Positions 34,727-61,983 of a DNA stretch of 64,000 bases are shown piece by piece (the first letter of the stretch is position 1; each line of letters opens with the position of its first letter). This DNA is from Paramecium tetraurelia (Eukaryota; Ciliophora; Oligohymenophorea; Peniculida; Parameciidae). Position numbers and translations under genes: made by a program. The notes under the pieces are model-generated. The model ran no database searches. It was not told the DNA's origin and worked only from the letters and a program-made list of their open reading frames with translations. Where the stretch lies: assembly GCF_000165425.1 (NCBI RefSeq), contig NW_001799411.1, positions 284,216-348,215 on the forward strand. The letters are read 5' to 3'.

Positions 34727-34840
34727 TGATGGATCTACCATAAGATTTGAATATTAATATAATAATATAATAATGTTATTTTTATATATTATGTAGAATG
34801 ATAATAATCTTACAACAGTCTTATATTAAATGTTATAAAA

Positions 34841-36108
34841 TCATGCTTTAGCAATTCTTCCATTTAAGAAATCTAAGAATGGTGGAGTTTGAACCACTTA
34901 CAATGCTTTAGCTAAGACTGCTAATTCTTATTGGACGGATGACTAATGGAATATAAATATATAAATTTACCACAATATCATCATGAATTTTAAGGTTGGC
35001 TGAATAATTATTGTTTTCAGTTCTCAATCTATCTTAATAAGCTTTAAGATCAGCTTCTCTAGTTGAGATCAGGGTTTCAACATCAGAGATTCTAACTAAA
35101 GAGATGATAAGATGATATGATACCTGTTTTATCTTCTCTTTCTTAATAGAAATCAGCATATTATTGATCAAACACTGCTTTTTCAGCTGTCAATTATTAT
35201 CTTCTTAATTCATCTTATTATTTTTGACTATCTTCATCTTTATAAGCTTTAGTCAAAGCATCAAAGATATTCAATCTTAAACTGTTCAAGAAATCACACA
35301 TTTCCTTTAAAACTTATCTATCTTTGAAGTTGAATCCTTCAGTCAAATTAGTCAATGCTTAGATGAATGATGAATATTAATGACCAAAATTCTCAGTATT
35401 GGCTTTGACTTATCTTAAAGCTTTATTGACTTTGTGTTTCTATTCATCAGATACTTCAATGAATGCAGCTCTTACTTCTCCACTTTTGAATAGATCAGTT
35501 AATAAATCTAATGCTTCATCAATATTTCTTAAAGCATCTGTAAATTCAGTTGTAGTCAATACAAATGATTCATGTTAGGTATTTCTAGCAGCTTCAGCTT
35601 CTTTGAATGATTAAGTATTATCTGTTTATTTGGCTTTGAGTCCTAATAAGATCTATAATTTGTAATTATATTTATACATCATCTAATTCATGAAGTCTTG
35701 GTATCAATTCAGAATTCAATACTTTCTTTTCTCTATTGATATCAAATTCAGCTTAATTAGCTTATGAACTGAGTGAAATAACTTTAGCATTATGTTCACT
35801 TTCAACAACTTCCCATTGTGTATTTTCCAAATTCAATCTCTCTTCAATTTGACGACCAAAGGCTTTTACTCCTTCTACTAATGAATCTACGGCTCCAGTA
35901 ACTCTCATTGTAACTTCAGCTAAATCAATAACCATATGTCCAATCTTTGATTATGTTAATTCATCTATTGAAGATTACAGACCTGGATTAACATATGAAT
36001 CCATAACACCTTAATTACTTTATTAGTTAAATCATTAATATCTTACTTTGTAACCGTAGTTGCTGAAACTAAGTACAATAACATCACTGCACTATATAAT
36101 CTTTTCAT
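34841..36108 (-). CDS. trichocyst matrix protein-like, copy 1
   Basis: Five exons with four introns (29, 25, 28 and 28 nt) give 385 residues ending FLDFLNGRIAKA-TGA. MKRLYSAVMLLYLVSATTVT is a signal peptide. The mature protein is almost entirely helical and rich in Gln, Glu, Ala and Leu, for example GRQIEERLNLENTQWEVVES, LRNIDEALDLLTDLFKSGEV and QQDELRRQQLTAEKAVFDQQ, as in the secretory trichocyst matrix proteins of Paramecium, which form coiled-coil crystals and expand on exocytosis. After the signal peptide it encodes a protein identical to the gene at 60712-61983. The two DNA copies, including introns, differ at only a handful of positions. The family call is from composition and recalled similarity; a related secreted coiled-coil protein is the alternative. 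Confidence 0.75.
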
Positions 36109-37379
36109 TTAATTCGTTTTTGTAATTAATGATTAAATAAATTTTCATAAACACAACTTTCTTTTTATTTCAAAATTCCTTAAGTAATTTTGATCTAAAC
36201 CATTTTCCTATATTATATTAATTGTTAATTTTCGATTACATTTATCATATAATCCTTCTTTGCTAATAACACATTTTTGGTGATGAATTGCTGTTAAAAA
36301 TTGTTCCTTAATGTAAAAAACACCACATTTTAATAGTTTTAGAAATTAGTTGTAAACATTTTGGAGTTTTATTAAACTTAGATTCCGCTATAAAAAATGT
36401 ATAATTTAATTCAATTTAACCTAAATTACATAACTGGTATAGTTTGATATAATTGAAGAAGAGGAATTAATATTTAAATTATTTGATGTTAAATCTCAAT
36501 CTTATGGTCTTATAAACGTATTAATTCGTTTAATTATTGTAAAGGCTGATAATTTCATAGCTAATTTCAGAAGAATCCTTTTATTGTCCTAGTTATATTC
36601 AAAAATTAAACTATTTGATTAATCAAGAGTCATTGTATATTTTAAAAATTTTTGTTTAAATTTATGGACAATAATATTGTATTTAAAGTAATGCTTAAAT
36701 ATATAGAAATAAATAAAATAATTCGAAAATAATAAAAAATAACTCAAATCAGAACTATAGTATTCAGTAAAATTCAAAGAGATAAAGACAATCTCCATTT
36801 AATGATTCGCTAATTTCCATCGTCACTCATCATTCCAAATTCTATAAAAGTAACTCAATAGAAACAATACCCATCCCCTATTAAATAAGATTTTATGATG
36901 ATGAACATGAGCTATGATAAAAAAGTTTGAATAATTGCTTCCATGACATTTACTGGGTGTAACAATAAAGAAATTAATCTGGAATTGTTTATGAGTAAAA
37001 TCATTCAATCTCAATAATAAAGGATAGAAGCTTAAGAAAAAAGTATATATAACCCTAATTTGCTTATTGAATTATTTTTCCTTTTAAAAGATTACTGAAT
37101 AAAGCATGCCTTTTAAGATCCTTCTGTATTGAATTGAATTCAATTATATTCTAACTTTTGTCATCTAAAATTTAGTCTTAAATTGAAGCCTCTTATATCT
37201 AAATCTTATGTTATTATATTAATTGCCCATGAAAGGAAGTTAAGATAGATTTGAGATATAATATTTATGAGACATAATTTAAGTATTGAAAAAATTGTTA
37301 TGGATTTTTCATAAGGCTGAAAAATTGTTGTAATTAATTATGATAAAGTTGATAAAAATATTATAATATATTTATAATA
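36109..37379. other. AT-rich intergenic region
   Basis: About 1.27 kb between the divergent starts of trichocyst matrix protein copy 1 (-) and the C2H2 gene (+). It is not similar to the region upstream of copy 2. No gene, RNA or repeat could be supported. Confidence 0.5.
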
Positions 37380-38394
37380 ATGTTCATTAATTTAGAAAAA
37401 GATTTAAAGGGCTTACAAAAAAAGAGTTAGGAGTATCAAGAAATCACTCAAAAATATCTGGTGGCTGATTCTGGAGTGAGAGTGATGAACGATGCATTTA
37501 AATAAATCTTGAATAAGAAAAAAAGTAATTTGTAATGATTTAAACAAGGCAAGCAATTTTTTTGTAAGAATTGTCCAAAGAAGTTTTTATCGTTTCCTGC
37601 ATTGAAGGAGCACGCAAAAAAGAATCATGGGTTTTAGCCACTTCAAAATGGGGAAGCTAGAAAGAGAGGGAGACCCAGGAGAGATGTAATTAAGCCAAGC
37701 GATTAATTTATTGAGTGGGAGAAAAATTAAGGATAGTAATAACCAAAACCAAAGAGACCCTCCTCTCTGATCACATTAAGATTGGAGTCAATTAAGGAAT
37801 TGGGCTTTGGAGGATTTTTGCGAGTACATAGTAAAAATAAAATTAGGCACCTAATTTACAATCATATCCGTCAATAAAGGACTCCATAACGAGTTTAATA
37901 AATAAATTAGAGCCTTAATTAGAGGAGAATTATATTTTGATAGGACTTGAGGAAATGAATAAATATTATGAGGAGGATCAGGAGTTTTATTTGGAGAAGA
38001 ATTATAATGTTAGTTAATTATTGGTTTCATTTCTAATAAATTTGACAATGTAAGTAAATGATGAGTTGTTGAGAGTGTTCATCACTTTTACAAAAGCAAT
38101 TTATTTTTTCATCGATAATTTTGCTAGAGATATTTTATTTAAGTAGTTGTCTCCAGAGGAATATGGGGTAATTTGATTTTCTATAAGTAGTTGATTCCAC
38201 CAATATGTCCAAATAAGAAATTTCATGAGTTAATGACAATATAAACATTCCCATTGATATTAAATGACTTCTTGGAGTTTCTACCAAACTTTTAGGAGGC
38301 ATTTCCATTGCCTTTTGCATCAAGAGTGTTGAAAGAGATCTGCGATTGGAGCACAGCAGAATGTAATGGATTTAAAGTGTATTTTAATCTTTGA
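37380..38394 (+). CDS. C2H2 zinc-finger protein with AT-hook-like motif
   Basis: Four exons with three introns (24, 23 and 23 nt) give 314 residues from MFINLEKDLKGLQKKSQEYQ to TGA, an exact frame. A single classical C2H2 finger (FCKNCPKKFLSFPALKEHAK-KNH) is followed at once by ARKRGRPRRDV, an AT-hook-like RGRP core. A Lys/Pro-rich linker and a helical C-terminal domain (GLEEMNKYYEEDQEFYLEKN, TFPLILNDFLEFLPNFQEAF) of unknown family follow. The combination suggests a chromatin or DNA-binding protein acting in a nucleus; one finger plus an AT hook can be enough for AT-rich DNA. The stop is 28 bp from the convergent stop of the kinase gene, leaving almost no separate 3' UTR. Confidence 0.75.
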
Positions 38395-38422
38395 AAATAT
38401 ATATATATATTATGATTAAGAG

Positions 38423-39872
38423 TCAAGCTTACTTTTTATGAGGGAGAATGACTTTTGATTGATTTTAAACCATAACTTTTTTTGTAAAGATTGAGAGTTC
38501 ATCCAAGCTTTTTTTAGAGATTCCATCGATAGATTATTTGGCAATCTTTCCTTTAGATGTTCGTTCACAACTTCTTTGTTCTTCGATTGTTGTTGTGTTG
38601 AGTGATTTTCTAATGAGAATCTTTTTGATTAGTCTATCTACATTTTGATTATTGTTGTCAATCTCTTCGATGATTGCGAGACAAATCTTAGCTGATAATC
38701 GATTTGATGGATCTGTTTCAAGCATGTAGGGCAACAAGATAAAGAGCTGCTCCATTTTTACAGAATTCACTTCAGGATGCTAAGGTTGTTTCTTTAATTC
38801 GAAATATCCATCTTTGTTGGCATGATAAATAGTTTGTTTAGCTGATTTAGTATTGAATAGATTTTCACCAGTTAATCTAATATTTATATTTTGTTGTTAC
38901 AATTTGTAGAGTAGACATCCGAGACTATAGATGTCAGCCTTCTCATCGTATTGCTTATCCTTATTATAATTAATGATTTCCGGAGCCATATAGCCAGGAG
39001 TGCCTGAGGTAGGAAAATTCAATTGGTTTTTTATTTTCCTCGCCAGTCCAAAATCTATCAACTTTACTGTGTCAGCTTTCATGATATTGAGTGGATTGAT
39101 GTCTCTATGCATCACTCCCTTATCGTGGATATATGAAACTGCTTCCAACAATTCCTATGAGTTAATTTCAAACAGCTTTACTCTCATAATTTTGATGGTT
39201 TCTACTATCGAAAGTCCATACTGCCGACTGGATAGTTCTGAATATAGGGTTCTGCCATTGATGTATTCCATGATTATGTAATAATATTGATTGTCTGCAT
39301 AGGTTTCTTTTAGTTTGACTATGTTTGGGTGGGATAGAGAAGATAAGAGAGAGAGTTCGTGCACTAACTATGGCTAGATAATTTAATATTGATAAGGATT
39401 CTTACAATTCCACCCTCATGTTGAGCAATCTTCAATTTATCAATCTTTTTTATGGCATAGTATAAATTAGCATTGTCAGCAGCTACACATCTGTATACAG
39501 ATCCTGTCATACCACTTCCCATCTCCATCTAAAATTGATAAAACGAAAGGATCGGCTGATAAAATATTTTCCCTGCTATCATTTCTTTTAGTAAATTGAG
39601 TTTTTATCCATAGACTATCTTGTAACCATTATTATATGAAAATTCGAAGCCCACGATGCGTTTTACTTCCAGAATCCACTTTATTGTAGTAGTGAGATTC
39701 ATCTTGAGATTGTACTTAGGTTATTTAGTGATGTCCTATTCAATCTTGAAGTACTTCATACATCTGTCATAACAAGTTCATCATTGAACAAATACAGAGA
39801 ATAGTTTTTATCCTTGAAGAAATGTTTTCTTGTAACTTAAACAGTGAAAAGAGCGTTCTCATAAGATAACAT
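38423..39872 (-). CDS. Ser/Thr protein kinase with PH-like N-terminus
   Basis: Three introns (26, 32 and 27 nt) leave 455 codons from MLSYENALFTVQVTRKHFFK to TGA. The first 100 or so residues (YSLYLFNDELVMTD, then TTTIKWILEVKRIVGFEFSY) look like the PH-like module of many ciliate kinases. The catalytic domain shows the Gly loop GSGMTGSVYRCV, Lys in YAIKKI, the alpha-C Glu in VHELSLLSSLSHPNIV, the hinge YIIMEYINGRT, DFG in VKLIDFGLARKI and APE in GTPGYMAPEIINYN. The catalytic loop reads HRDINPLNIM, so Asn replaces the Lys of the usual HRDxKxxN. Fold and metal-binding residues are intact, but activity may be altered. Substrates are unknown. A tail of about 120 residues, Lys/Ser-rich, follows the domain. 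Confidence 0.85.
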
Positions 39873-40843
39873 AATTATATTAATTCATAATTAATCATTC
39901 ATTTGCTGACCTCTTCAGTCTAAATATAGATCCTTTATCAATATTTCAACTAACACTTGTTACATAGGAATATCTATCTGATTCTAGATTTCTTAGTATC
40001 TAATCTTAGTATATCATCTAAATGGCAAACAATTTATTGTTCCTAAATTCAGCATCATTAATAACTCATAAATTTTTTGTCATTTTTTTAATTTAAACAT
40101 AACTCAGAAAATTTCTTAAATCAACTCATGTTAATTATATCTATTAATATTGATAATATTATTCGAAGGATTATCATAAAATTGTTTTCTAAAATATAAT
40201 TTTAGATAACATTAAAATTTATAGAAAATCAATTGATTTGATTTTGATGCCAACTAATCGAAACATAGAATTAAATTGAACAATAAAACAAAAACTGAAT
40301 TTTAAGAAAAATTAATTAATGGTAAATGAGAAAATATTTCTAATTATGCTATTCCCCTTAAATTAAAATATTAGGTTAATGATTCTACTTCCCAATTTAA
40401 CTTAACTATATCTAATTTTTATAACATAAAATAATATCTAATTAAAAACCATAAAATTTGGCATCTAAGTAGAGCAAAATTAAATGCGAATAACTTTAAT
40501 TACAAAAATGTTATTTAAAATCAAAGAAGAAATAATACATAGGATATTATAAATATTAATATTTTTATTATTCTAATTAAAACTTCATCATTAGGTGCAA
40601 AAATAGTATACTTTTACCTGTAAATTAACTGATGAGTAACGAATCCAATCATCCTTATAGGATTAAGAAAAGATATCTTACGCACATTAATAACACTTAC
40701 AATTTTCAATAACCCCAAATATTATTAATTTTGGAAATTCTTTTAGTCTTAATTTAATACATATTAGTAAAAGCTAATTTCTTATAATATTTTTGGATAG
40801 TTTATAAATAATGAATAAATTCTTTCATTTTTGAGAATTTTTT
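39873..40843. other. AT-rich intergenic region with a short coding-like trace
   Basis: The region lies between the kinase start (-) and the two-TM protein start (+). On the minus strand at about 39915-40090 a coding-like string with Gln-rich, helical character (QEIQNQIDIPMQQVLVEILI, ending KDLYLD-TGA) can be joined to an upstream piece through an intron-like GTTT..AG segment, but no ATG opens it. It may be an exon relic. The rest is AT-rich and featureless. Confidence 0.35.
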
Positions 40844-42395
40844 ATGTTTAACCAATTTTTGAATCATATCAGAAAAGTCGATCAATTTGGAGTAGTCTTC
40901 TAACCTAAAATCAAATACTCAACAAATGAGTACAAGACTGCTGTGGGCGGGATAATGTCAATCGTTCTTTATGGGTTGAGTTTCAGCTATTTGATATATA
41001 GCTTTGTGTAGTTTGGCTAAGGGTCTATTCTTCCAAAAATTACATCAATCCAAGCGAAATCAGACCAATAGAGTGTATCTTTCGAGAACGAAATAATGTC
41101 ATTCAAGATCAGGCCTGGATAAGACAATTAAATAAATCCATTCGATCCAACGGCTCTAGTGCTTGTTCCATTCGTGATTCCATTTTTAAACAATGAGATA
41201 CCTCCAAGTTAATATTTCAACTTCGAATAAATTTCATTCTAAGGAAATACAATATCCATTCGGAATTTGAATTTATAATATGGGGATCCCTCGTAAGATG
41301 AGATGGAACAAATCATTGCATTCGTAGGATGTAAACAAGCTGACATACAACCACCTTTCGCATGTGCAAATGAGAGTGTCAGAAATTCTTTTTTCGCTCA
41401 ATCTAGTAATGCCATGCTTGCAACTACTTAAGTAAATTAATTCAATACGGATAAAAGAACTTTGGAGGAGGTTGGCAAAGAGCAAGTCTTGGCAATAGTC
41501 GACAATTCAACATATTTTTAAACCACTAATTTGAATATTTAAGAATCAACAGTTGATACGGGACTCTTATTGGAGTCAACTGAAAAGTATGTTTACGCTA
41601 CAGATTATTATTTGACTAGTTAGCAAATAGATCAATAGTATTTTAGAAATACATTTAATTATGATGCCTATTTAGTGTTTTAATTGAGAATTGGCAAATT
41701 GAAATACTATTAGAGTATTCAATATCCAAAAATTAGTGAAATTTTAGCAGATGCAGGTTCTATTGCTTCTACAATTTTATTATTGTCTTATTTTGTCATT
41801 CTATGTAATCAGAGCCTTTTGGAGAAGCAATCCTTGAATGATATCATTTAGATCTATTATCCATCCTATAAGGACATGTAGATAAGAAGGACATTTTATG
41901 GTTAGATAAAGGAGGTGACTTATTAGGGGAAAAGGTAGGACGTAGACCAATTCAAATAGTATTAGAAAGAGTTGTAGGATAAAGCAGAGAAGAAATTAAC
42001 TATTTTAAATTAAGTGTATGAGATCTCAAGATTATAATTTTTGGTTTAAAATATTTTGAAGTCGAAGGAGCAGTTAAGATAGAGTCACAAAATTGGGATT
42101 AAGTTAAAGTAATTTGAATTACCCAAATTGATTAATGAGGAGAACTTAAATGGCAATTAAATTGTATTTACATCTTTTTATTAGATACCTCATTCACAAT
42201 TGAATTTGAATTGTTCGACCTAAAAGTTGGTGATAATTGATAGTAACAGTGATTCATTGTAGAATCTTAAGGTATCTTAAGTTGATAATACTTTAGAAAC
42301 AACAGCAATAGAATACGATTGAAGAATCCGATGAAAATTAGTTAAACGATGAAGACTTTGATATTTTGATTCAACCTAATGAATTGGAAGAATGA
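40844..42395 (+). CDS. two-transmembrane ciliate family protein
   Basis: One intron of 25 nt near the 3' end gives 508 residues, MFNQFLNHIRKVDQFGVVFQ to ...IQPNELEE-TGA. The opening (FLN-IRK-DQFG) followed by a Lys/Tyr segment and a first membrane helix (GGIMSIVLYGLSFSYLIYSF) is typical of a large Paramecium/Tetrahymena family that I recognise only as uncharacterised transmembrane proteins. A long, presumably non-cytosolic loop with four Cys (VGCKQADIQPPFACANES) follows, then a second helix (AGSIASTILLLSYFVILCNQ). A Lys/Gln-rich cytosolic tail of about 190 residues predicted to be partly coiled coil (KELQDKAEKKLTILNQVYEI) ends in an acidic terminus. Function is unknown. It is followed after 52 bp by the gamma-COP gene on the same strand. 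Confidence 0.7.
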
Positions 42396-42447
42396 AATTA
42401 TATTATTTGTAAGAATAATATTATAAGAAATAATTAATTAAATACAC

Positions 42448-45288
42448 ATGTCCACTTTATAGTATGTGAGGGAAATCATTAGTAGGTAGATCTCGACTCT
42501 ATCAAATCAAAGTGGAGAAGATAAAAAAGCTTTGGGTAAGAGTTAAACTTATTAAATTAGAATCTGAACCATACCACAATTTGCAAAAGTCAAGTGTGTT
42601 ATTAGAATCTAGGTGTTTCAATGACCCTTAATTATAGGACAAGAAATGTCGACAAATTCTATCCAAATTGATATACTTGATCAACTAGGTATGTGGCAAT
42701 AGTGATACCTCTATGATAGGGTGAGAAATTCAATGACCAAGAATCTTTGAGTTTATTCTTTGGAATTACCAAGCTCTTCTCTTCAAATAATGTGGATTTG
42801 AGGAGAATGATCTATTTGATGATTAAGGTAATATGTATGGTTTATATATTGTAGGAATTCAAAGATGAGAATTCTATGTATGTAGTAATCAGTTGTTTAG
42901 CCAAAGACATTACTTCCAAGAATGATCTCTTTAGAATTAATGCTCTGCGTACCCTTCCCTATGTTCTTGATCAATCCAACTTGGTTCAATTGGATAGATA
43001 TTTAAAGAATGTATTGACATTGTTATTCACATCAAGGCAATCCTCGAGAAGAGTTAACCGATTTCAAGTGCTGCTCTGATAGCTGGCCTATAGATTTTCA
43101 GAATAAGTCCCGATTTCATTAGAAAGTGGACCAATGAAGTGGCTGACAGACTCAATTCCAAATATCCTCAAAATAGTTTCCATGCATTATTGTTATTACA
43201 TGAGATTAAAAGCAACGACAAAGTCACATTCACTAAAATCCTCACTGGATTAACCAAAGAAACCCTTGTACCCATTGCCAACATGCAAGTTATTAGATTC
43301 ATTAGAGAAATCCTCAATACCGATGAATTAGATTAGCAATATGAAAAAGTAAATCTTTCCAATAATCTACTTAGTTGTTCATTGAATATCTCTAAAGACA
43401 AATACACAAGTCATAAGAAATTGTGATTTTTGAGGCTTGCAAAGCATTATGTGATTTGAAAACCCTCTCTAATAAGGATCTATAACCCATGGTCTAAATT
43501 GTGACTGTCTTTTTGCAATCAAGCAATGTGATCAATAAGTTTGTGGCACTCAAAATATTAAACAGATTAATCTCAAATCCTATTAGAAGATCCCTTATCA
43601 CACCCTAGCAAATCGAACCGCTCATCTAGGATTCCAATAAATCATTGTCTTCCTTAGCTGTTTCCATATTGTTGAAAGTCTGCTAAGAAACCAATATTGA
43701 GAGACTCTTAAATTAAATTTATGAATACCTAAACGACATGAGTGATGAATTCAAAATAGATGTCCTCAGAAGTGTGAAAGCATTAGCAAAGAATTCCCCT
43801 ACCAAATGGAAACCAATTATTAATTTCCTTCAATTAACCTTCAAATGTGAGGCCTCCTAAGAATTTAAGAAGTATTCAATCGAAATCTTTGAATTCATTA
43901 TTCACGAGATTCCTGAAGCTAGAGAAAATGCTATTATGGCTTTGGCCGATTACATTGAGGATTGCTAACAAAGTGCATTACAATTGAGTGTATTGAGCAT
44001 CCTCAATAGAGAAGCTTCAAAAAAACAATGCCCAATAAGAGTTATTAGAATTGTTAATAACAGACTACATCTTGAAGATGCTGAAATCAGAGCTGCAGCA
44101 GTTGGCGTACTAGGCAAATTCTTACTTAACTATCCTAATGAAAAGGCAAACCTCCTTGAATTATTACAAGCAGCTTCCTCGGATCCTGATGAAGAAGTTA
44201 GAAATCGTTCTCGATTCTATGTCAGTGAATCAGCAGCACCCAAAGAGGAGAATCCCCCATTGTCAATAGAAGAATTAGATGCAATCGAAGCCTATTTGCA
44301 ATAAAACATTCAGGAAATCTAGCAATCTAATGAAGAAGTATTACAGTTAGATAAGATCATGGCATATGCTGAATAAAACAAGGGAAAGATTAAGAAGACT
44401 GAGGTGTTACAAGAATTAGTGGAAGAGGAATTGATTTAAACTCATGAATCTGAATCTGGATTTGAGACCTATAAGAAATTGTTCAAGGAGAGCACAATCT
44501 TCTGTGATTATGGAGTACTTAGAAAATCATCAAGAGCATAAAATTTAACTGATTCTAAATGCGAATATTTAGTAACAGTGGTCAAACACTTTTTTGATAA
44601 TCATATAATATTGGAGTATAAGGTAAAGAACACATTAGACAATGTTACATTGAGTGATGTCTCTCTGGAATTGACAATAAAGAATGCAAATCTTCAATTT
44701 GAAAGAATTGTGCCAGCAAAATCAATTCAACCACAATGTGCATCTAACATATTGGTTGGATTGCAATTCAATCCTAATTTGAGATTAGTGTCATCCAATA
44801 TTCAAAGCATATTGACATTTACAGTGGATGAAAATGGTACCACCTATTAAGACGAATATTAGACTGAAGATTTCATCATAACTTATAGTGACTTCTTCTT
44901 ACCTATTTAATGGTTTAAGTAAGGTTTTCATCACTATAAAATAGAAAATTCCAAACTGAATGGGAATCTCTTAAATCACAAGAAATGTCGGCTACATATT
45001 AGTTAGATTATAAGAATACTGATATAGCAATAAAGGAATTAGTGAAACATTTCGGTATGAATTTATGATTTAAACAATATAGGGTTTTAAGTTTGTGATA
45101 ATTCTGATTAAATATAGCCTTAAAATAAGTTTCATACTTTATTACTGTCAGGCAAGTATTTGGATGCCAAGAATGCACTAGTGATATGTTAGATAGGATT
45201 TTAATAGAATATAGGATGTGTGTTAAAAATAAAGTGTAAATCAGAAGATGATAATTTAAGTACAAACATTGTAGAAACCCTTGGTTGA
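42448..45288 (+). CDS. COPG: coatomer subunit gamma (gamma-COP)
   Basis: Gamma subunit of the COPI coat, needed for Golgi-ER retrograde vesicles. The start is MSTLQYVREIISRQISTLSN. Short introns occur near 42534, 42690, 42828, 43348, 44914 and 45053, among others. The N-terminal trunk shows diagnostic HEAT-repeat sequence: SLFFGITKLFSSNNVDLRRM, IYLMIKEFKDENSMYVVISC-LAKD, and FRINALRTLPYVLDQSNLVQ. The rest of the solenoid runs through NLLELLQAASSDPDEEVRNR. A linker (PPLSIEELDAIEAYLQ) leads to the appendage, with its immunoglobulin-like part (VSLELTIKNANLQFERIVPA, ASNILVGLQF) and the platform part (WESLKSQEMSATYQLDYKNT, HTLLLSGKYL). It ends ...STNIVETLG-TGA, as a full-length family member. The stop is 109 bp from the convergent LUC7-like stop. 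Confidence 0.92.
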
Positions 45289-45397
45289 TATTATATTAAA
45301 TACATTTAATATGGTATAGATGGAAAACAATTAATGGGAATAAAAGAATAATAATAAACCTAAAATTTTACACAATTTGGAAATATGTTTAAATATT

Positions 45398-46532: not shown

Positions 46533-46577
46533 TCTTTTAATAAATATTTAAATTAGTTTCTATCTATATTGCTTAAA

Positions 46578-48684: not shown

Positions 48685-48732
48685 AATATATTAGAAAATT
48701 CTTTAATTTAATTGTACACCATATATATATAT

Positions 48733-51700
48733 TCAGAACAATATAATAACTAATACTATCATTAGTATTGCTCCATGATTTGTTTTGATATCAGTTTATA
48801 TATTGATGCTATTACTACATTGAGTGCATTTCGATGTTGTAGTATTCCAATAAAAAGTATTCAGGGTATTAGCTCTACAGGATTATTGATCGTAAGCCTC
48901 TGGATTGGTCTCTACGCATTTGTCATCCTTAGAAATACAGAGTTTGATAGTTGTAGCATCCATGCTATAAATATTATGGCATTCTCTGTCCTGGAGGTCT
49001 TCGCACTCTAATGGAAGACAAGAAGTATCAGAAGTGATCTAAGGATTTTCGATCCATTTGCATTTCTCTGATAACTATTGGCATATCTATTTATCTAGAT
49101 TACTATCGGAGCATTCCAGAACCTTTAGACATTAAAGACCATCCCAAGCACAAGTTCCATCTAGACCACCATAGTTACATGAAAATTTATTATCGTAATT
49201 AGCACAGACATCAATAGCAATACACAACTGACCATCTGAAATACAGTTTGGTAATTGTTTCAGACAAGTCTCATGAGTGTAACCATAAGGTATGTCACCA
49301 CAGGAAATAGTTTTGCATTATTTTGTCTAATAAACACATTTGCCATTACTACTTTGAGCATGCAAACATGTTTGTTCATCCGTATAATCCTCACATGCTT
49401 TAATAGTAACACATCTTGTTGAATCAGATGTGCATCCATACAATTAAGCACTGCAAGCCTCATGAGTTTCTCCAACCAATTATTCACATGATTGATCTTT
49501 ACATTCATTTTGAACAGCATCCCAAGTGCAAATTCCAGTTTGAGTTATGTACTTCTAATTTGAGTTCGATTTGATGACCTTTCCATTCGAGCTTATTTTG
49601 CATTGTTCCTTCTATTTATATGATGAACATAATAACAATGGAATGCATCCATTCTCTGCATCTGTTGTGCATTTCTAGGATGTTGAATAACATTGTTTAT
49701 GAGTTAAGTATGGTAAATCATAACATGCCAAGAATCTTTTGCATGTACCTAAACTTTCCCACCAAATGCAGTCTCCATCTAAACCAATAACGCAGGCTTA
49801 TTGAATTGTGTAATCAGCACATTTACTTAATCCAACACATTTATTACCATCAGTAGTGCAGTTCTTAGATAAAGATTTGCAAATTGTATCATATGAACTT
49901 GAGATGGTATTACAACCTGTATACAGATAGCATGTGCTATTGAGCCACTTACAGATACCATCAATACCTTTAAGACAAATGTCTTCTGTAATGAATTCTG
50001 AGCATTTCTTCTTGGTTGTACATTTGACACCAAAAATGGAAGAATTCTAAAAGGCACAATTGTAGAGAGCACATTCTTTCTCAGATGTCCCTTGAATGTC
50101 ATCGCAAATTTACTCTCTGCATCTAAATGAATCCCAAATGCATAATTTATTATCAGCAGATGTTGTACACGCTGCTTATAATTATGCATTTTCACATGTT
50201 GATTTTTAAGTGCAACCACCTCCCAATCTTGTAGTACAATTACCTTTAGGATAATATTCTTAGCAATCCCTTTCTGTAATGTTGTATTCTGGTGAAGTAG
50301 TGCATGACTTGGCACTGCAATAAGAATATCTGAAGTTCCATTAGCATTCATTTCCATTGACATCTGTATTGCAAGCCTCTTGAACACGAGCATCAATACA
50401 TTATTTTCTATCAATACAAGTCTTTCCATCAGATGTACAATTGGAGTTGTATTTCTTGCATTCATCATTAGTCTTGTATATTAAATCACTGCACTTTTAA
50501 AGTCTACAATAGACATAATCAGTATAGCAGAATTGATAATGTTGTTCACATAATTGAGCAGTGATGGCAGTGTCTGGAGCATTTTAACAAGATCTAACCT
50601 AGCATGTATTAGTCTTTGGATTCCAATAGCAAGATTGATTGGAAATGGTGATAACACACTGCTTCTCAGTTTGATATTGTTCACAATAAGTGCTTTTGAA
50701 TTAACAACCATTTCCAATAGCAATTGTAGTGCATTCATTGAGATAGGATTGGCACTCATCATGTTGAGTGAATGACTTTGGAGCAGTCTGACATGATTTA
50801 TTCATGCATCTAGTTCCATCCCAACCACATGGCAGATACATATTATTGATAACACATTGTCGTTCACTGATATATGTTGCACAATCTTACAAAGGAACAC
50901 ACCCTCCAATGCCTGAATGTATGACTGTGCAATCACTCAGATAAGCTTGACATTCCACATGAGTATCTCTTGTACTATCATATGCTGCAGTGTAACAAGA
51001 CTTTACGTAGCATCTTCCACCACTCCATGCACATACATCTCCATTGGAACCAATAACACAAGACAATTCTGCTGAATAATTCAGACATCCATTCAATGTC
51101 ATACAACCTCCACCCTGCTTTGCTGTACAAGTACTCAAAAACCCATAACATTAAGTGTGAGTTGTATAACTAGTTGGAGCATTTGAACATTTAATATCTG
51201 CACATTTACTGATGTCCACATTCCAAAAACATACTCCCTGAGCAGTATTCTTGAAACAATGAGACTCCTATATATAATCAGAGCATTTAGCAGCCTTTGT
51301 GATACATTCACCAATTCTGGCTACTGTACAAGCTGACAAAAATGTCTTACATTCGGTATCATCATCAAAACTTGCATTCTGAGTTGCATCTTCGCAGACT
51401 CTATCCTTACATTAAGTACCAGTCCAAAAACAAACAGTATTATCTTAACTTTTGATACATTAGTCTTAATTCGACATCATGGAACATTTCTAAGGCTTAA
51501 TGACACAACCTGCATGTACATTTAATGCATCCACTGTGCATGTTGATAACCAAGTTTCACAATCAGTATGTGTGAATGTTGTACCAGTGTAATTTGCACA
51601 TGTTCGATCCTGGCATTATCCGGATAACCATACACAATTCACTAAACCAATATTAGTTACACATTAATCCTAAGTCACTCCTTAATCCGTGCAATTTGTA

Positions 51701-54700
51701 GGTTTATTTACACAATTATTTGGTGATGCACCTGATTCAACGGTACAAGTTTCTAACCAAGTCTTGCAATCCGAATGAGTGAATGTAGTTCCTGTGTAAT
51801 TGCTACAAGTCCTTCTTAAGCAAGTACCATTATACCAAGCACACTTATAACTACCACTGTCAATTACACATTAATTATATGATACACCGGCATTACTACA
51901 ATTTGATTATAATGTAGTGCAGGTTGTTGGTTTATTTAATTAACATTGAGGTAACCATTTTTCACAATTACCATGAGTCCAAGTACTGATACCTGTCGTA
52001 TTTGAGCAAGTCTTATCAATACATGCAGTATTGCCTGAATTTACAGTGCATGTTGATAACCATGTTTAACAATTTGCATGATTAAATGTGATTCCAGTTG
52101 CATTAGCACAAGTCTTAGCAGTACATGCAGTACTACCTGTCACAGTACAATCAAAGTTCCAATTTTAACAATTATTATGATTGAATGTTGTAACAAAAGA
52201 TCCGTGATTAGTACAAGTCTTGGGTTCACATGCATTTGATCCTGTATTAACTGTACATGTAGACAACCAGAATTAACAATTACTATGATTGAATACAGTC
52301 ACTTAACTTCCATGATTAGTGCAAGTTCTACTTGTTACACAAGATGCACCATCATCAGATACAGTGCAATAATATAACCAATTTGAACAATTTGTATGAT
52401 TAAAAGTACTTAACCCATGATTACTACAAGTCTTATATTCACAATTAGTGCTTGTTGGTGTTAATTTACAATAACTAAACCAATTACTGCAGTTTGTACT
52501 ATTGACAGTAAAACCGGAAGGATAATTTGTACAATGCTTCATTTCACATTTTGTAGTTGAATTATTGGTACAAGTAGGTAGCCATCCAGAACAAGTTATC
52601 TTAGTAAAAGTACTTAATTATGATCCATAGTTATCACACGTCTTGAGCATGCAACCATCATTTGAAATATTCACTGTGCAAGATGGCAACCAATTCTAAC
52701 AGGTTTGGAGGTTAAATTAAGTAATCTGATTGCCATAATTACTACAATTTCTGGTACTCACACATTTAGTGGCTGAATAGTTTGGAGTGCAATATGATAA
52801 CCAAGCTCTACATAAGGATTCAGTGATAGATCCTGAATAATTATCACATGTCTTATATTCGCAATCATAGTTTAAGTATGTACATTGATTATTCCAATTG
52901 AAACAGTTGGTTGCTGATAATCCCATAGCTTAATAGTTTGTGCATGTTTTATAATTGCAAGTGGTTTCACTTGCTTAAAATGTGCATTATGGCAACCAAG
53001 TTTAACAATTCGCATGACTTGGGGTACTCACATTTGCACCATGATTTTGACAAGTTTTATTCTTGCACGCTGTAGCCCCGTCATTAGTACAAATATCATA
53101 CCAATTGTAACAGTTTGAGTGATTGAATGTTGTGACTTCGGATCCATGATTTGTGCAGGTCTTGGAGATACAACCAGTTGAAGAGGCATTGGATGTGCAT
53201 GTAGTTAACCAATCCTAACAATAGTATTAATCATATTTAATATTGTATCCATTGTAACTTGATAAACATGTTCTTGAAGGCAGACACCCTGAAGAGTTAT
53301 ATGTACATTAATTGCCAATCCATGAAACACAATAACTACTAAATGAACTTGTAAATGCACTACCATAATTAGTGCAAGTTTTGAGTTCACATCCATTTGC
53401 ACTTGCATTTGCTTTACAAATTGTTAACCATTATCCGCATTTTTAATTAGTTGTTGTTGTCATACCATGATTGAAGCATGTCTTATAAATGCATCCATTA
53501 TTTGACCCGTTGACTGTGCACAAGGGATTCCATTACTCACAATTAACATGATTGAAGATCTTAATATTATCTCCATAGTCACTGCAAGTTCTCTATGAAT
53601 GGCAGCCTCTCTGACTTTAACTTCTTGTGCAATGTGATAGCCAACTCTGACAATTTGCTACAGAGGAAAACGATGTTGAACTTCCACAAGTCTTATAATC
53701 ACAATATCCAAAAGTAGTAACTTGTTTGCACGAATTTAGATATGATGAACATGAAGACCATGCTCCTGAATCTGAACATTATCTATTTTTGCATCCTGTA
53801 GTACTATCATTGGTACATAAATAATTCCAAGATACACATTATCCATCTGTAATTTAACTAGGCGTACTATAACCATTTTTTAATTCAGTTGTGATACTTG
53901 TATTGTAACAGGTTTTTTCAGTACAACCATTACCAGAATCATTGACTGTGCAACTTGACAACCAATTTTCGCAGTTGAGATGATTGAATGTTGTAACGTT
54001 TGATCCATAATTGGAACATGTTCTGTGTGAGATACAACTCAATTATCCAAGTAAACAATGAGAATATCTGGTTTAACAAGTGGCAAGAGTAGTATCTGCA
54101 AAATCATAACAAGTTTTGATCTTGCAGCCAGTACATTATTGATAATAACAATCAGATCTAAATCCTTAACACCCAGAATCACTAAAACATGTACCAATAT
54201 TTTGGTTTTGATTATTACAAGTCTTATCAATACATTTCGAATTATCGTACATTGCAGTACAAGATGATGACCAAGTTTAACAATTGGAATGATTAATAGT
54301 TCCGGTGAAATTGGCACAAGTCTTTGGAGCACAATTTGTATTAGTAGAATTAACAGTGCAATTGGGATCCCAAGCAACACAATTTGCATGATTGAAGACT
54401 GAAAAGTGTTATCCATTGTTATAACAACTACTCACACATTGATTGTTTGTAGATTTCAACGACCAAGCTTCCGACCATTTCTTACAATTACTCTCTGTAT
54501 ATATAAGAGTTTATATAGCATTTGAACTAGTCTTGAAAGTACATCCATTGTAAGAAGAATTGATAGTACATCTAGATGACCAAGCCTCACAATTAGCTTA
54601 ATTAATTGTTCCTGAGAAATTAGTACAAGTCTTTTCAACACATATACCATTGGAACTATCGTACTTGCATGATGAGAGATATGTCTCACAATCTGATTCA

Positions 54701-57700
54701 GAAGTTGGGGTTCCAATCACAGTAGTGTACATTTCACATAATTTATATGTGCAACCAGAATTGTCAGTCTTTCTAGTACATGTGGATAACCATTATTCGC
54801 AATTACTATGCGACACAGAACCTCCAAAATTAGAACATGTCCTTATCGATTCACAATCAGAACTGGTTGAATAGAATGAACAAGTACTAAGCCAATTTGA
54901 ACAGTTTGATGCGTTTAGAGTCAAAGCGCCGTGATTTGTACAAGTTCTATCCTCACATAATTGACTTGATGAATTGTAAGTGCATAAAGAACTCCAAGAT
55001 TGGCAATTCGAAGTGTTTTTAGTAATATAAGAAGGCATATTACTACATGTTCGAGTGATACAACCATCGAAATTGGTATTGACGGTGCAGATTGATAACC
55101 AACCATTACAAGTTGAATCGTTGTATGGTCCAAACGATAATAAGGTAGGAGAAGCATTTGAACAGGATTTATCTTCACACGAAGTACCTGCACTATTAAT
55201 AGTGCAAGATGAAAGCCAATTATTACAGTTGGTGTGATTTAATACCTTAATGTTGGTTCCATAATTAGTACATGTTTTAGTACTAACACAAGCAGTTTAG
55301 GTATCATTACCGGTACAGTAAGATAACCAAGTATTACAACTGGCTGAAGTATAAGTAGCAGGAGTTATGTTGCTACATGATCTATCTTGACACCCTGTAT
55401 TTGATAGATTAGTACAGGATGACAGCCAATTGTTGCAATTGGTATTCGAGAAACTCGATATACTTTGGCCATAATTATAACAAGTCTTTTCAATACAACC
55501 ATCAAAAGTAGTATTAACAGTACAGGTGGATAGCCAAGCACTGCAATTTGTATTACTGTATGAACTAACTACTGCATTACTACAGGTTTTATTTTCAATA
55601 CAACCAGAATTGGAAGAATTTGCAACACAATAGGACAACCAAGCACTGCAATTCGCATTTGAGTATAAGGTTACTTAATCTCCATGATTATAACAAGTCT
55701 TACTTATACATGCACTTTGAGCAACATTGCTAGTACATGTATTCAACCAAGTTTCACATGTGATTGGATCAAAAGCTATCAAATATGATGCAGCCAATGC
55801 ACAGGTTTTATCTTAACAACTTGTTGTATTTGAGTATGTACATGTGGATAACCAGTTTTCACAATATTGATGAGTATAAGTTGTTAAAGAAGTACTAGTA
55901 CAAGTACGGATATTAACACAAGCAGTACCAGAAGAGTTAGCAACACATGCACTCCACCAAGCTTAACAATTTGCATTATTGAATACAGATACATTAGATC
56001 CATGATTTGTACAAGATTTAGGAATACACGTTTTAGAAGATCCTGTATAAGTACAATTGGATAACCATGTCTAACAATTAGCATGACTCAATTGACTAAC
56101 TTGGATACTATGATTGTAACAACTCTTTTGTTCGCATCCATTGAATTGAGATTTGACTGTGCAATCTGATAAATAACCTTAGCAAAATTCAAAGGTGTAA
56201 GTTATAAGTTAAGTATCAGTACAAGATTTTAATTTGCATGCTGATGAACCATTATTCGTGCATAGATAATTGTAACTCTCACATGTGATATGAGTATAAG
56301 TGGGCAAAACTGGTGAACATCCTCTCATATTCTCACAAGCAGTACCACCCACATTTACTTAACAGTAACTCAACCATGACTTGCAATTGGCATTGCTGAA
56401 AACAGTTACATTAGTTCCATGATTGGTACAAGTCTTAGCCTCACAAGTAGTTCCATTGGTAGTGCAAATTCCCAACCATTTATTGCAACTAGCATGATCC
56501 TATGTGTAGACAAAATCATTATAATTATAGCAAGTCTTATCTGCACACTAAGAACCTGAAACATATGTACATCTCTATAACCAAGCCTCACAATTTAAAT
56601 GAGATTGGACACTCACATTGCTACTGTGATTGGTACAAGTCTTGTCATTGCATTAACCTACAGTAGTGTAAGTACATTCATTAAACCAACCAACACAATT
56701 TGCATAATTAAATGTTGTTAAATCGGTCAAGGCACATGTTCTTTTAGAGACACAGGCTGTATTGTCAGAATTAACAGTGCAAGTATTTAACCACTAGTAA
56801 CAATTATTTGAAGAATAAGTTCCTAATTTAGCATTTGCACAAGTCTTGGGTTAGCAACTTAATTGATCCACAGATATAGTACAAAGATAATACCAGTTGT
56901 TGCAATTTGTATGACTAAAGTCTGTTATTGAATGATTGTAACAAGTCTTTTAAGTACAAGTCGAACCTGATACTGTGCATTCATCCCACCATGCATTACA
57001 ATTATTGTAATTGAATACTGTTATCGCTGTGCCATAATTAGTACATGTTCTACTACTGACACAAGCTGTATGATCGTCATTTGACTGACACTTGAATAAC
57101 CAGGTGCTGCAATTGCTATCAGTGAAATCAGTTACCTCAGATCCATAATTCTTGCAAGTTCTGTCAATGCATGCATTATTAGCAGAGTGTACTGTGCAAA
57201 GAGGAGACCAACCAGAGCAATCACTATGGGTAAATGTAGTCACATTCGAACCATGATTGGTACATGTTCTTGTAATCTCACAGGCAGTTTGACCAGGATT
57301 ACCAGAACATCCTGGCATCCATCCTGAACAATTGGCATCAGTGAATTCAGTCACAGCATATCCATGATTATTACACGTTCGGTCTACACATGAAGTACCT
57401 ACCCAAGCACATAATAGATTAGATATATTCTTGTAACACTGATCATAATTCAAAGCATCAGAACAATTAGTTGGTTTAGCTGCACAGGTTGTTGGCTTAT
57501 TTACTGTACATGAAGTCATCCATGCATAACATGACGAATGGTCGAAATCTGTAATTCCTTCAGTAGTTGTACATGTCTTATTTACACAACTCGATCCATT
57601 CCAATAACATTAGACATTTGTAGAGGTATATGTACAATTATTTTAATATTAATAGGAAGTACATGATGATTGTAATGCCAGACAACCAGTAGGAACAGAT

Positions 57701-60334
57701 ACATTATTCACCACACATGTAGGCAACCAATTAGCACAAGTTGTAGGAGTAAAACTAGCAATTCCAATAGTCAAACTGCAAGTTCTATTTAGACAATAAG
57801 GAGGATTTGCAGATGTGTTCCAAGTACAAATAGTACCTGCACTATCCTTCACACATTAATGCTATGACAATTCATTACAAGTCGCCTTTCTTATGGTGCA
57901 ACCAGTACCACCTATTCTACGTACTACATTGCATCTATTATCATAACCATGACATTCATTTTTATCGTCATAGCTGGCAGTATCTGGTGAATATATACAT
58001 TATCTGTCCAAACAAGAGGTTAAATACCAAGAACATTTATTACCATTCAGAATTTATTCACATTATCTTTGAGATGTGTATGAACTGCAACTCGTCATCA
58101 TTGTCATGCATCCTCCTGTACCTGTAGCAACAACTGTGCAAGTATCCAAGAAAGTATTGCATTCTGTAAATGTGTCATAATCTGTACTTGCAGGTGCATT
58201 ACTGCAAGTCCTATCAACACAAGATCCAATCCAAGCACAAGGATCACCAGATAAATTTGTAGAAGTAGCAGTACATTAAGTGGCAGTAGTCATATCTGAG
58301 CAATTTGCTGGTTTTGGAATACAACCATCTCCAGCATTATTAACAATACAAACCTGTGAGATATGTATTACACAAATCATTTGTAGTATGTGTATTGTCA
58401 GCAGTTTGACAACTCTTGTTAGCACATACTCCATTGTTCCATTGACAAATATCGTTGTTTATATCAAATCGACAACTATTTGAGTTAAAGTATTGATCAC
58501 AAGTGTTTAATAATTAACAGCCAGCTCCAGTAGTAGTACAACCAATTAAATACGAATTACATCCCTCATATGTTGTCAGTGAACTCGGAGCTGTCTAACA
58601 CTCCTTCTTCTTGCATGAATTTTAATACCACTCACATTGAACATTGTATGCATTTGTGATACATTATTCTGCTATTTTCATCTCTCCACATTGATAAGGT
58701 CTATCCATACATCCCATCCCAGTGTTTCGGACTGTACATTTACTTAGATATCCCTTGCATTAAGCATCAGTCACAAAACTGCTGTTTACTGGAGCATTTT
58801 CACAAGTCTTATCAAAACATAACCCAATCCAATGACAATTATTCCCTAACTTATCTACAACACAATTATCCTTTTAGAATATAGCATCACAAGTCATATC
58901 CATACATCCATTTAACGTTTTGTTTACTGTACAAAGTTTGGAATAAGTTTGGCATTGATCATGAGAGTTGTAAACATTTGGAGCATTAGTACATGTCTTT
59001 AATCTGCAGGAATTTAAGTACCAAAAACACTCTCTTCCTTGTTAATCTAATAAACAAGCTTCTTTCATTGTAATAATGGAGCAATCCGAATTCATGACAC
59101 ATCCCCCATTAATTTTGGTAATACAACCAGATTTATATAATTCACAATCATAATTACTTTTTAATTCCTTTGGAGCATTATCACAAGTTCTATCTTGACA
59201 ACCATTTTTTGATGCATTTACTGTACAATCGGATTTGTACTCTGAACATTTTTCATGGGTATTATAATTTTTGTCTGCATTGATACAACTATATTAAACA
59301 CACGATTTCGTATTCCAAGAACAATTCAATAATCCACTCTAACAACCTGTTTAATCAATGAAGTCTTCACATTTATTGAAAGTTTAACAACCACCCTTCA
59401 AACTAGGTACACACCCATTCAAAAACTGTTAACATTCCTCAAATGTTCTTATTAATTCAGATGCATTGCTGCAAACCTTTTCTACGCATTAATCATTCTT
59501 CCAATAACACTGCTTACCATTCTTATCAATAACGCATGCTGCACTAATTGAGATATCTACACAATTTCTAAGCTCAACGCATCCTCCACCTACTGTTAAG
59601 ATGCATCCCTTTAAATAAGAGTTGCATTCCTCATTACTCTTTATACTTATTGGAGCAGATTAACATGATCTATCAACACAAGTTATGCCATTCCAATTAC
59701 ATCTCACCTGCATGAATCTATCCCAAACACACTGTTATTCCCCTTCCTAATTGTAACAATTCAATCCGCTCAATTAACATCCACCTTATGATGATACAGT
59801 GCAGTCACTGTTCACACTTCTGCACTCGGCATCACTCGTCAATGATTTCGGCAATTATCCACAATCTAAACTCTTTGAACAACTCCCATTTTCCCAATAA
59901 CAATAGTTCCCTTCTGTATCTTTCCTGCATGATATTGCTGTCCTGTAATCAGAACACACACTGATTTCCACACATTTCTCTCCGTCTGTTATACACTTAT
60001 TAGATATGCTTTGACACAATTCATTTGTGCTCTATAAATAACTACTGCATGCACTAAATTCAACACATTTGTCCACCAAAAATGCACAGCCTGATTAAAT
60101 ACTACAATTAGTTTTATCAAATTGAGAACAAAATGATTCACTCTCTCCATCATGTACCGATCCTTATTTTAACTTCACTTTGCATGCATAATCCTACCAC
60201 TAACAACCTTATTTTATGCAATCATCCTGCACCATCAGTTGCAAGCATTCACATTCATAGTCACTCCCAACTATGATCTCCTTCCCTAATGACCCACTCA
60301 AAACTAGAAGCAAAACCAATAAAAAGGGTTTCAT
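48733..60334 (-). CDS. giant Cys-rich surface antigen-like protein
   Basis: An 11.6 kb gene encodes about 3860 residues. The start MKPFLLVLLLVLSGSLGKEI is a signal peptide, and the opening YECECLQLMVQDDC matches the first module of Paramecium surface antigens. Residues up to about 930 and the last 1000 or so are ordinary antigen (PSA) modules with motifs such as GGCVELRNC, NYCYWENGSC and GDVCAWSGGRC. Between them lies a tandem array of short single-Trp modules, annotated separately. The C-terminus (NHGAILMIVLVIILF-TGA) is a hydrophobic tail fit for GPI attachment, without the long Ser/Thr spacer of the 17-24 kb antigen. At more than 3800 residues it is clearly larger than the roughly 2000-2700 of known antigens. 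The frame is continuous except near 58329-58359, where one extra base, or a 25-nt GT..AG intron, must be invoked. Asn-X-Ser/Thr sites are abundant. Confidence 0.88.
51950..57390 (-). repeat. array of ~36-37-residue single-Trp Cys modules
   Basis: Inside the giant gene, about 5.4 kb is made of nearly 50 head-to-tail modules of 108-111 bp. A typical unit is C-x-NHG-x(4)-FxHxNCxxWLSxCTxN-x(5)-CxxKTC, for example TFNHTNCSNWLYYCTVSDDG or VFNHSNCQFWLSTCTVNTGS. Each has four cysteines, one near-invariant Trp and a Cys-free 8-12 residue stretch. Copies are diverged in sequence (much more than recent perfect repeats) but constant in length and Cys spacing. A few longer canonical antigen modules interrupt the array. 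This is about half the length of a normal PSA module. Confidence 0.85.
58329..58353 (-). other. 25-nt GT..AG segment at a frame break in the giant gene
   Basis: Read on the minus strand, the frame of CNTYLT must change by one base to continue as CIVNNAGDGCIPKPANC. The 25-nt segment here begins GTTTGT and ends GGAG, the usual intron size for this genome. Removing it also restores the frame, but it would delete the conserved Cys of the module. Either it is an intron formed inside a coding module, or the sequence contains one extra base. Confidence 0.4.
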
Positions 60335-60711
60335 ATTTATATATAATACTCTTTTAGTCAATATTATCAATTAAGTATAATTCAAATTTTTCATCTCCCC
60401 CAGAGATTTTTTGTTTCGTAAATATCTACTCCAAAATCTAATCTGTCTCCAATTCGACATAAACACAATACCCTCTCCCAATATTAACCTCAATTACAGC
60501 CAAATCTATCTATCAAGACAGGCCCAAACAACAACAAAAGTCTAACGAAAGAAACTATTCCCCCTTCGAATCGAAAGAATAAACTAATAGTTATATTTGA
60601 ATCTATAATTTCTTTGATGTTATTTTTTAGCCCTTTTATTAAATATGAGTGTTCACATTCAAATTATAATAAACTCTCAAATATTATATTATATAAAAAA
60701 CGAATTCATCT
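60335..60711. promoter_or_regulatory. divergent intergenic region, giant antigen / trichocyst copy 2
   Basis: A 377-bp region between two divergent starts. It must carry both promoters and 5' UTRs. A pyrimidine-rich stretch (about 60395-60480) and an AT-rich stretch next to the trichocyst gene can be seen. No named motif was recognised. It shows no similarity to the upstream region of trichocyst copy 1, so the two copies probably have different promoters. Confidence 0.45.
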
Positions 60712-61983
60712 ATGGTACATCATAAGATTGTTCTCTTCGCCCTGATTTGTTTAGTTTCAGCAACTACGGTTACAAAGTAAGATATTAATGATTTAACTAA
60801 TAAAGTAATTAAGGTGTTATGGATTCATATGTTAATCCAGGTCTGTAATCTTCAATAGATGAATTAACATAATCAAAGATTGGACATATGGTAATTGATT
60901 TGGCTGAAGTTACAATGAGAGTTACTGGAGCCGTAGATTCATTAGTAGAAGGAGTCAAAGCCTTTGGTCGTCAAATTGAAGAGAGATTGAATTTGGAAAA
61001 TACACAATGGGAAGTTGTTGAAAGTGAACATAATGCTAAAGTTATTTCACTCAGTTCATAAGCTAATTAAGCTGAATTTGATATCAATAGAGAAAAGAAA
61101 GTATTGAATTCTGAATTGATACCAAGACTTCATGAATTAGATGATGTATAAATATAATTACAAATTATAGATCTTATTAGGACTCAAAGCCAAATAAACA
61201 GATAATACTTAATCATTCAAAGAAGCTGAAGCTGCTAGAAATACCTAACATGAATCATTTGTATTGACTACAACTGAATTTACAGATGCTTTAAGAAATA
61301 TTGATGAAGCATTAGATTTATTAACTGATCTATTCAAAAGTGGAGAAGTAAGAGCTGCATTCATTGAAGTATCTGATGAATAGAAACACAAAGTCAATAA
61401 AGCTTTAAGATAAGTCAAAGCCAATACTGAGAATTTTGGTCATTAATATTCATCATTCATCTAAGCATTGACTAATTTGACTGAAGGATTCAACTTCAAA
61501 GATAGATAAGTTTTAAAGGAAATGTGTGATTTCTTGAACAGTTTAAGATTGAATATCTTTGATGCTTTGACTAAAGCTTATAAAGATGAAGATAGTCAAA
61601 AATAATAAGATGAATTAAGAAGATAATAATTGACAGCTGAAAAAGCAGTATTTGATCAATAATATGCTGATTTCTATTAAGAAAGAGAAGATAAAACAGG
61701 TATCATATCATCTTATCATACTTTTTAGTTAGAATCTCTGATGTTGAAACCCTGATCTCAACTAGAGAAGCTGATCTTAAAGCTTATTAAGATAGATTGA
61801 GAACTGAAAACAATAATTATTCAGCCAACCTTAAAATTCATGATGATATTGTGGTAAATTTATATATTTATATTCCATTAGTCATCTGTCCAATAAGAAT
61901 TAGCAGTCTTAGCTAAAGCATTGTAAGTGGTTCAAACTCCACCATTCTTAGATTTCTTAAATGGAAGAATTGCTAAAGCATGA
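60712..61983 (+). CDS. trichocyst matrix protein-like, copy 2
   Basis: Introns at 60777-60805, 61146-61170, 61700-61728 and 61854-61881 (25-29 nt) leave 387 codons ending FLDFLNGRIAKA-TGA. The signal peptide MVHHKIVLFALICLVSATTV differs from that of copy 1 up to the shared LVSATTVT. From there to the stop the two genes encode the same protein, with introns at the same positions and nearly the same sequence. The mature protein is a long helical coiled-coil chain (QSSIDELTQSKIGHMVIDLA, EFDINREKKVLNSELIPRLH, LRTENNNYSANLKIHDDIVS). It is likely a matrix component of secretory trichocysts, made in the ER, processed and packed in the granule. Confidence 0.75.

Follow-up and report, generated by a model that had tools for sequence, protein, structure and literature searches.

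An old inverted gene pair of Paramecium tetraurelia, probably homogenised by gene conversion separately on each of three related scaffolds

Introduction

How do two genes, in opposite orientations, come to be almost identical throughout their bodies and unrelated on either side? The question is raised by a 64,000-nucleotide stretch of the Paramecium tetraurelia genome (NCBI RefSeq assembly GCF_000165425.1, contig NW_001799411.1, positions 284,216 to 348,215 of the forward strand), here called the window. It carries, head to head, two copies of a gene for a secreted protein, probably a trichocyst matrix protein (TMP). Copy 1 lies at 34841..36108 on the minus strand, and has 385 codons, four introns, and the leader MKRLYSAVMLLY. 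Copy 2 lies at 60712..61983 on the plus strand, and has 386 codons, four introns, and the leader MVHHKIVLFALIC. We refer to the window's scaffold as C179, and mark left and right copies with L and R. Hence, copy 1 is 179L, copy 2 is 179R, and 186R is the right copy on scaffold C186. An earlier note, made from the window alone, correctly gave the coordinates, strands and number of introns. It proposed repeated gene conversion between the inverted copies or, alternatively, a converted tract that was retained and had new promoters. Here, we compare the pair with its counterparts in the same genome. Our explanation, to which we give a probability of about 0.92, is that an old inverted duplication would have been homogenised by gene conversion in each scaffold.

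Results

The window copies were aligned with 120 bases of flank on each side. They have a single shared tract of 1239 alignment columns, with 8 differences and 99.35% identity. Converted from the alignment edges, its limits are 34835..36072 (minus strand) in copy 1 and 60751..61989 (plus strand) in copy 2. The tract starts exactly at TTAGTTTCAGC, in the middle of the signal peptide (codon 13 in one copy and codon 14 in the other), as the earlier note had it. The end, placed by that note at the TGA, is six bases further on. Outside the tract are the non-converted leaders, of L type in copy 1 (36073..36108, minus strand, first 12 codons) and of R type in copy 2 (60712..60750, plus strand, first 13 codons). 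As previously counted by eye, there are five exonic differences, all silent. Thus, the 364 codons compared after the leader contain 5 synonymous and 0 non-synonymous differences. Of the other three differences in the tract, two are in intron 3, namely a 1-nt indel and a substitution, and the third is a single base immediately following the stop codon. Note that the few changes said to accompany the length difference in intron 3 come down to this one substitution. Outside the tract, identity is 35–67% in 40-column windows. The 150-base flanks are no closer than shuffled sequences, with values of 0.17 upstream (shuffle mean 0.36, in a gappy alignment) and 0.42 downstream (shuffle mean 0.39), using six shuffles. 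The flanks of this pair thus show no likeness beyond chance, in keeping with the earlier note. Chance is excluded as the source of the identity. A retrocopy origin of the pair is ruled out, since the introns are retained.

A DNA search, covering the window's own genome (69 Mb in 231 contigs), gave eight matches. Two of these are the window copies. The others are inverted pairs on C186 (91% identical to the window genes) and on C217 (84% and 82%), and two short matches, on C9 and C27. The surroundings of the pair also correspond among C179, C186 and C217, according to BLASTN between the three regions. Identity inside each pair is 99.35–99.92%; between scaffolds it is about 91% or 82–84%. Scaffold C15 (loci L026–L028) matches C217 in 7 blocks, with 64–87% identity (one piece reaches 89% in another comparison), and has lost both pair genes. 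What remains there is at best a match of 70 columns (E 3e-9), corresponding to the end of the right copy. The two losses may have been joint or separate events. Divergence between scaffolds was gauged from neighbouring open reading frames (ORFs) with at least 150 aligned residues, pair genes excluded. Since the unfiltered list contained antisense frames, ORFs were kept if the ratio of non-synonymous to synonymous divergence (dN/dS) was below 0.25. Median dS was 0.53 for C179–C186 (17 of 30 kept) and 0.90 for C217–C15 (11 of 17 kept). Values ran from 1.81 to saturation for C186–C217 (7 of 7 kept) and were 2.23 and saturated for C179–C217 (2 of 3 kept).

Divergence between left and right copies is far smaller. 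In C179, C186 and C217, respectively, dS is 0.022, 0.004 and 0. For the same genes between scaffolds, dS is 0.23 (C179–C186) and 0.55–0.63 (comparisons with C217). The C179 and C186 genes are separated by 45–47 synonymous differences. With 45.5 expected, five or fewer within the C179 pair has P = 3e-14, and the C186 and C217 pairs are more extreme. Purifying or codon selection, acting without conversion, is barely credible as the cause. Such selection would fit the finding that pair genes are more conserved between scaffolds than most neighbours. However, it should act equally between scaffolds, where the 45–47 synonymous differences and diverged introns are found. Neither can it make introns, and the state of intron 3, agree within scaffolds and differ between them. 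Hence, it is refuted by the intron pattern. An assembly artefact is a further possibility: reads might have been collapsed, one consensus placed twice, and a 24.6-kb flip between the copies, described below, produced by a misjoin through the repeat. The C217 copies do differ by just one indel, and misjoins classically occur at inverted, near-identical repeats that exceed the length of short reads. Yet the pairs differ at 8 (C179), 5 (C186) and 1 (C217) columns, so are not literal duplicates. The first two sets are spread along the tract, at offsets of 142–1233 in C179 and 22–1139 in C186; the C217 indel is at 1088. An assembly duplicate, which the earlier note held would defeat conversion, is therefore very unlikely to explain the identity, given distinct single-site differences in each pair and old flanks. 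It is for the inversion that misassembly must be weighed.

A tree of the gene bodies clusters by scaffold, with support of 90/92 for C179, 100/99 for C186 and 100/100 for C217. The three clades by side that we tested are rejected (approximately unbiased test, p-AU 2e-78, 5e-12 and 2e-4). Conversely, a tree of upstream sequence plus leader clusters by side. Here, the split between left and right has support of 100/100, and both scaffold clades tested are rejected (p-AU 5e-6 and 3e-6). Informative sites among the four C179 and C186 genes divide in the same way. The body has 70 scaffold-type sites and 0 side-type sites, and the upstream region plus leader has 28 side-type and 2 scaffold-type. Hence, by both body tree and dS, paralogues within a scaffold are closer than counterparts that split later, as in concerted evolution. 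The unconverted upstream region and leader keep an older kinship by side, with a noisier 3' flank. Bodies grouped by scaffold, and upstream regions and leaders grouped by side, imply that the duplication predates both inferred genome duplications, and that each pair was homogenised alone by gene conversion. If, instead, the pairs were young, inverted duplication must have occurred recently and independently on each scaffold, three times at the same place. This would account for the very low divergence within pairs. Even so, we regard it as highly improbable. Two old types of leader and upstream region are common, by side, to all three scaffolds, so the clustering by side refutes independent origins, and the 28 to 2 split of sites in C179 and C186 speaks against them too. 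Furthermore, insertion would have had to occur three times at the same pair of sites, with the same orientation each time and with edges that agree to a few bases.

The first proposal of the earlier note, repeated gene conversion between inverted copies, is thus strongly supported by three scaffolds that each have a separately homogenised pair. Its alternative, a converted tract retained with new promoters, is not supported, because the leader and upstream types are old and common by side to the three scaffolds. Nor is it valid to argue that a segmental duplication ought to have copied the flanks too; the duplication predates two inferred genome duplications, so unconverted flanks had time to decay. 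Note that GC content at third codon positions, considered with GC-biased conversion in mind, is 0.181–0.184 in the four C179 and C186 genes, and 0.124–0.140 in the C217 genes.

In all three pairs, the start of the tract is at the same leader codon, to within one base, and the tract extends 0, 3 or 6 bases beyond the stop codon. The left leaders MKRLYSAVMLLY, MKRLYSAVMLLF and MKRLLSMAMILY are alike across scaffolds, as are the right leaders MVHHKIVLFALIC, MIHQKIVFLALIC and MAYQKIVLIALIC. Together, leaders alike by side and matching edges in three pairs imply that the edges were in place before either inferred duplication and have not moved since. Most simply, homology stops there and conversion cannot extend. 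Selection for distinct leaders is possible, but not required.

Intron 3 provides a marker for transfer between copies. It is present in both C179 genes (35096..35123, minus strand, 28 nt in copy 1; 61700..61728, plus strand, 29 nt in copy 2) and absent from all four C186 and C217 genes. In the relatives on C9 and C27, that site is likewise occupied by an intron (27 and 28 nt), in the same phase. Hence, intron 3 is old, and a new gain on C179, spreading between the copies, is ruled out. Three histories remain. Intron 3 may have been lost separately on C186 and C217, each loss then passing to the second copy, or a single older loss, in one of the copies, may have been sorted by conversion. Both of these require transfer between copies. 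The third history, loss with later regain at that site, is less likely. PMC3464196 reports more than 99% intron conservation in 1,112 gene pairs of recent duplication; a difference in presence or absence is therefore rare. The first 20 bases of intron 3, with one mismatch allowed, were found in the two window copies only. The idea that intron 3 might be an internal eliminated sequence that was retained was rejected, since no simple TA-bounded fit was seen by eye.

The interval between the two start codons (36109..60711, 24,603 bases) is inverted, relative to the sequence outside, by comparison with C186, C217 and C15. Briefly, the interiors of C179 and C186 share one direction; the left exterior of C179 matches the right exterior of C186, and vice versa. 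Since C217 and C15 have the C186 order, that of C179 is derived. The start of the 3' flank follows the flip, with 179L resembling 186R and 179R resembling 186L (10 crossed, 1 side-type and 6 scaffold-type sites). Hence, both junctions lie inside genes, as exchange between inverted copies would leave them. In the assembly, the interior is reversed against the exterior and both breakpoints are within the repeats. The inversion is probably real. A misassembly affecting the inversion alone is the less probable reading.

Several observations weigh against our interpretation. First, flanks within a pair score above the best of six shuffles in 2 of 6 comparisons (C186 downstream and C217 upstream), so some homology, or likeness of composition, persists there. 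Second, support for the C179 body clade is only 90/92. Third, pair genes diverge less between scaffolds than their neighbours. For C179–C186, dS is 0.23 against a neighbour median of 0.53, with 2 of 17 neighbours lower; in comparisons with C217, dS is about 0.6 against neighbour values of at least 1.81, with 0 of 7 lower. We attribute this to codon bias or constraint, the alternative being some exchange between scaffolds. Fourth, the 3' flank is noisy. Of 17 informative downstream sites, 6 are scaffold-type, and over 150 downstream bases the closest pair is 186L–186R (0.54), with the crossed pairs at 0.51 and 0.50. Fifth, the inversion is bounded by near-identical inverted repeats of 1.24 kb, a spot at which an assembler misjoin would give the same picture. 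Finally, the two genome duplications are suggested by synteny and dS, and all data are the assembled sequence of one genome.

The window genes have a frame that is open if TAA and TAG encode glutamine and TGA is the stop. This is a ciliate code and fits the genus Paramecium. Note that the gene models are predicted from sequence. This applies above all to intron 1 which, judged from the reading frame, is most simply 29 nt from AA/GTAAG, with an unusual AAG end. TMPs are granule contents, encoded by a multigene family, and made as precursors of about 40–45 kDa with a signal peptide. The window genes, with 385–386 codons and a leader that is hydrophobic by eye, are, from such general features, probably of this kind. 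A Pfam search with the window protein gave two matches, both under the curated cut-offs, though the Pfam content of TMPs is not established. Likewise, no match was found in the Protein Data Bank at E up to 1, where the presence of any TMP is not established. In PMC3091696, P. tetraurelia is credited with 176 annotated TMP genes, 118 of them up-regulated after exocytosis.

The word AAAACGAATT precedes both start codons, by 2 nt in copy 1 (36111..36120, minus strand) and by 5 nt in copy 2 (60697..60706, plus strand). All 8 of the 8 subfamily genes read, namely the six pair genes and the C9 and C27 relatives, carry it 1–5 nt upstream of the ATG; the sites include about base 480 of loci L007 and L008. 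In 224 kb of four scaffolds, 6 of 8 occurrences are at pair genes. Genome-wide, AAAACGAATTNA has 235 occurrences, against 398 for a backwards control. Hence, the word is not enriched and only its placement is notable. Among the matches listed, none lay at the relatives on C29 and C52, which are more distant. By eye, AAAAACGG-type words are present near the starts of more distant relatives on C186 and C217. We consider AAAACGAATT a candidate shared start-site or promoter element. Its position, directly before both ATGs, would if anything suggest similar control of the two copies, rather than the two expression inputs for one granule component that the earlier note envisaged.

Other features of the locus were apparent. 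A further distant relative (27–28% identity) lies 12–16 kb outside the pair on C186 (about 100.4–101.1 kb) and C217 (about 70.7–71.4 kb). C179, at about 356.1–357.2 kb and right of the window, matches the C217 distant relative by DNA. Hence, the locus is a small cluster. On other contigs, diverged relatives of the window genes have 26–47% identity. The right C186 copy (L013 4684–5931, equivalent to C186 145684–146931) has a 2-nt insertion in intron 1, so another 3' splice site is needed to keep the frame. Within the inverted interval, at 48736–58575 on the minus strand, is an open frame of 3280 codons with a high content of T, C, S and N. It has repeated Paramecium surface antigen domains (Pfam PF01508, E down to 7e-109), again in keeping with the genus, and a counterpart on C186. 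In a search for relatives beyond this genome, a 27-base pattern of all six pair genes had 0 matches in genome-contig and viral-contig collections; other Paramecium genomes lay outside the search.

Discussion

We propose the following sequence of events. A secreted-protein gene would have undergone inverted duplication before the genome duplication that split C217 and C15 from C179 and C186. Later, recombination between inverted copies on the same chromosome would have repeatedly overwritten one body with the other, in each scaffold. Overwriting would reach no further than the homology does, halting within the signal-peptide codons at one end and shortly past the stop at the other. Leaders, promoters and 3' flanks specific to each side could then drift apart, with bodies kept near-identical, and intron 3 losses, or one older loss, would be carried across by conversion. 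From the known behaviour of recombination, we expect this to occur in the germline (micronuclear) nucleus. Breaks in one copy may be repaired with the inverted copy as template, whether this lies 25 kb along or on the sister chromatid. Non-crossover repair would overwrite the body; a crossover would flip the interval and keep both copies. In C179, one exchange may have been resolved as a crossover, inverting the intervening 24.6 kb. Homogenisation may also have been helped by selection to keep the mature protein uniform. A more elaborate possibility is that selection holds the edges. Two leader and promoter modules would have different jobs, and have been separate since before two genome duplications, the mature protein being kept uniform for the granule. 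An old left/right difference in intron 3 would then have been sorted by conversion into opposite scaffold states. We think this combination unlikely.

Homogenisation of inverted copies by conversion is already known; the notable part here is the threefold replicate in one genome. Repeated inversion, by exchange between inverted duplicates, has reportedly been described in a study of recurrent eutherian X inversions. We know of no primate X palindrome with a stable pair of separate leaders on one mature protein. Human Y palindromes, such as P6, in which conversion is frequent and inversion rare (PMC3723533), resemble the window pair in having inverted copies, near-identical by gene conversion, and rare crossover inversions. 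In the Paramecium case, by contrast, each arm consists of one 1.2-kb gene body, the spacer measures 24.6 kb, the edges coincide with functional boundaries, and related scaffolds supply three replicate pairs. Primate X palindromes (PMC8981503) share conversion between arms, but their arms are much larger. Paralogues from Paramecium genome duplications (PMC10195154, PMC11334263) are of the same genus and likewise look younger than their duplication. Unlike these, the window partners are inverted, 25 kb apart on one scaffold, and homogenised far more strongly within than between scaffolds. Copepod GOT1 paralogues (PMC3728101) are similarly mosaics, in which some stretches have been converted and others stay divergent; in the Paramecium pair, the divergent stretch is the leader and flank. 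PMC9788069 mentions gene conversion once in passing. In open-licence literature, we found nothing joining TMPs, Paramecium and gene conversion, or inverted copies with these.

Together, three inverted pairs, with a yardstick of divergence between scaffolds, sharp edges, an intron marker and an apparent crossover product, constitute a natural assay. Dating such gene duplications from their bodies alone would yield an age that is far too young.

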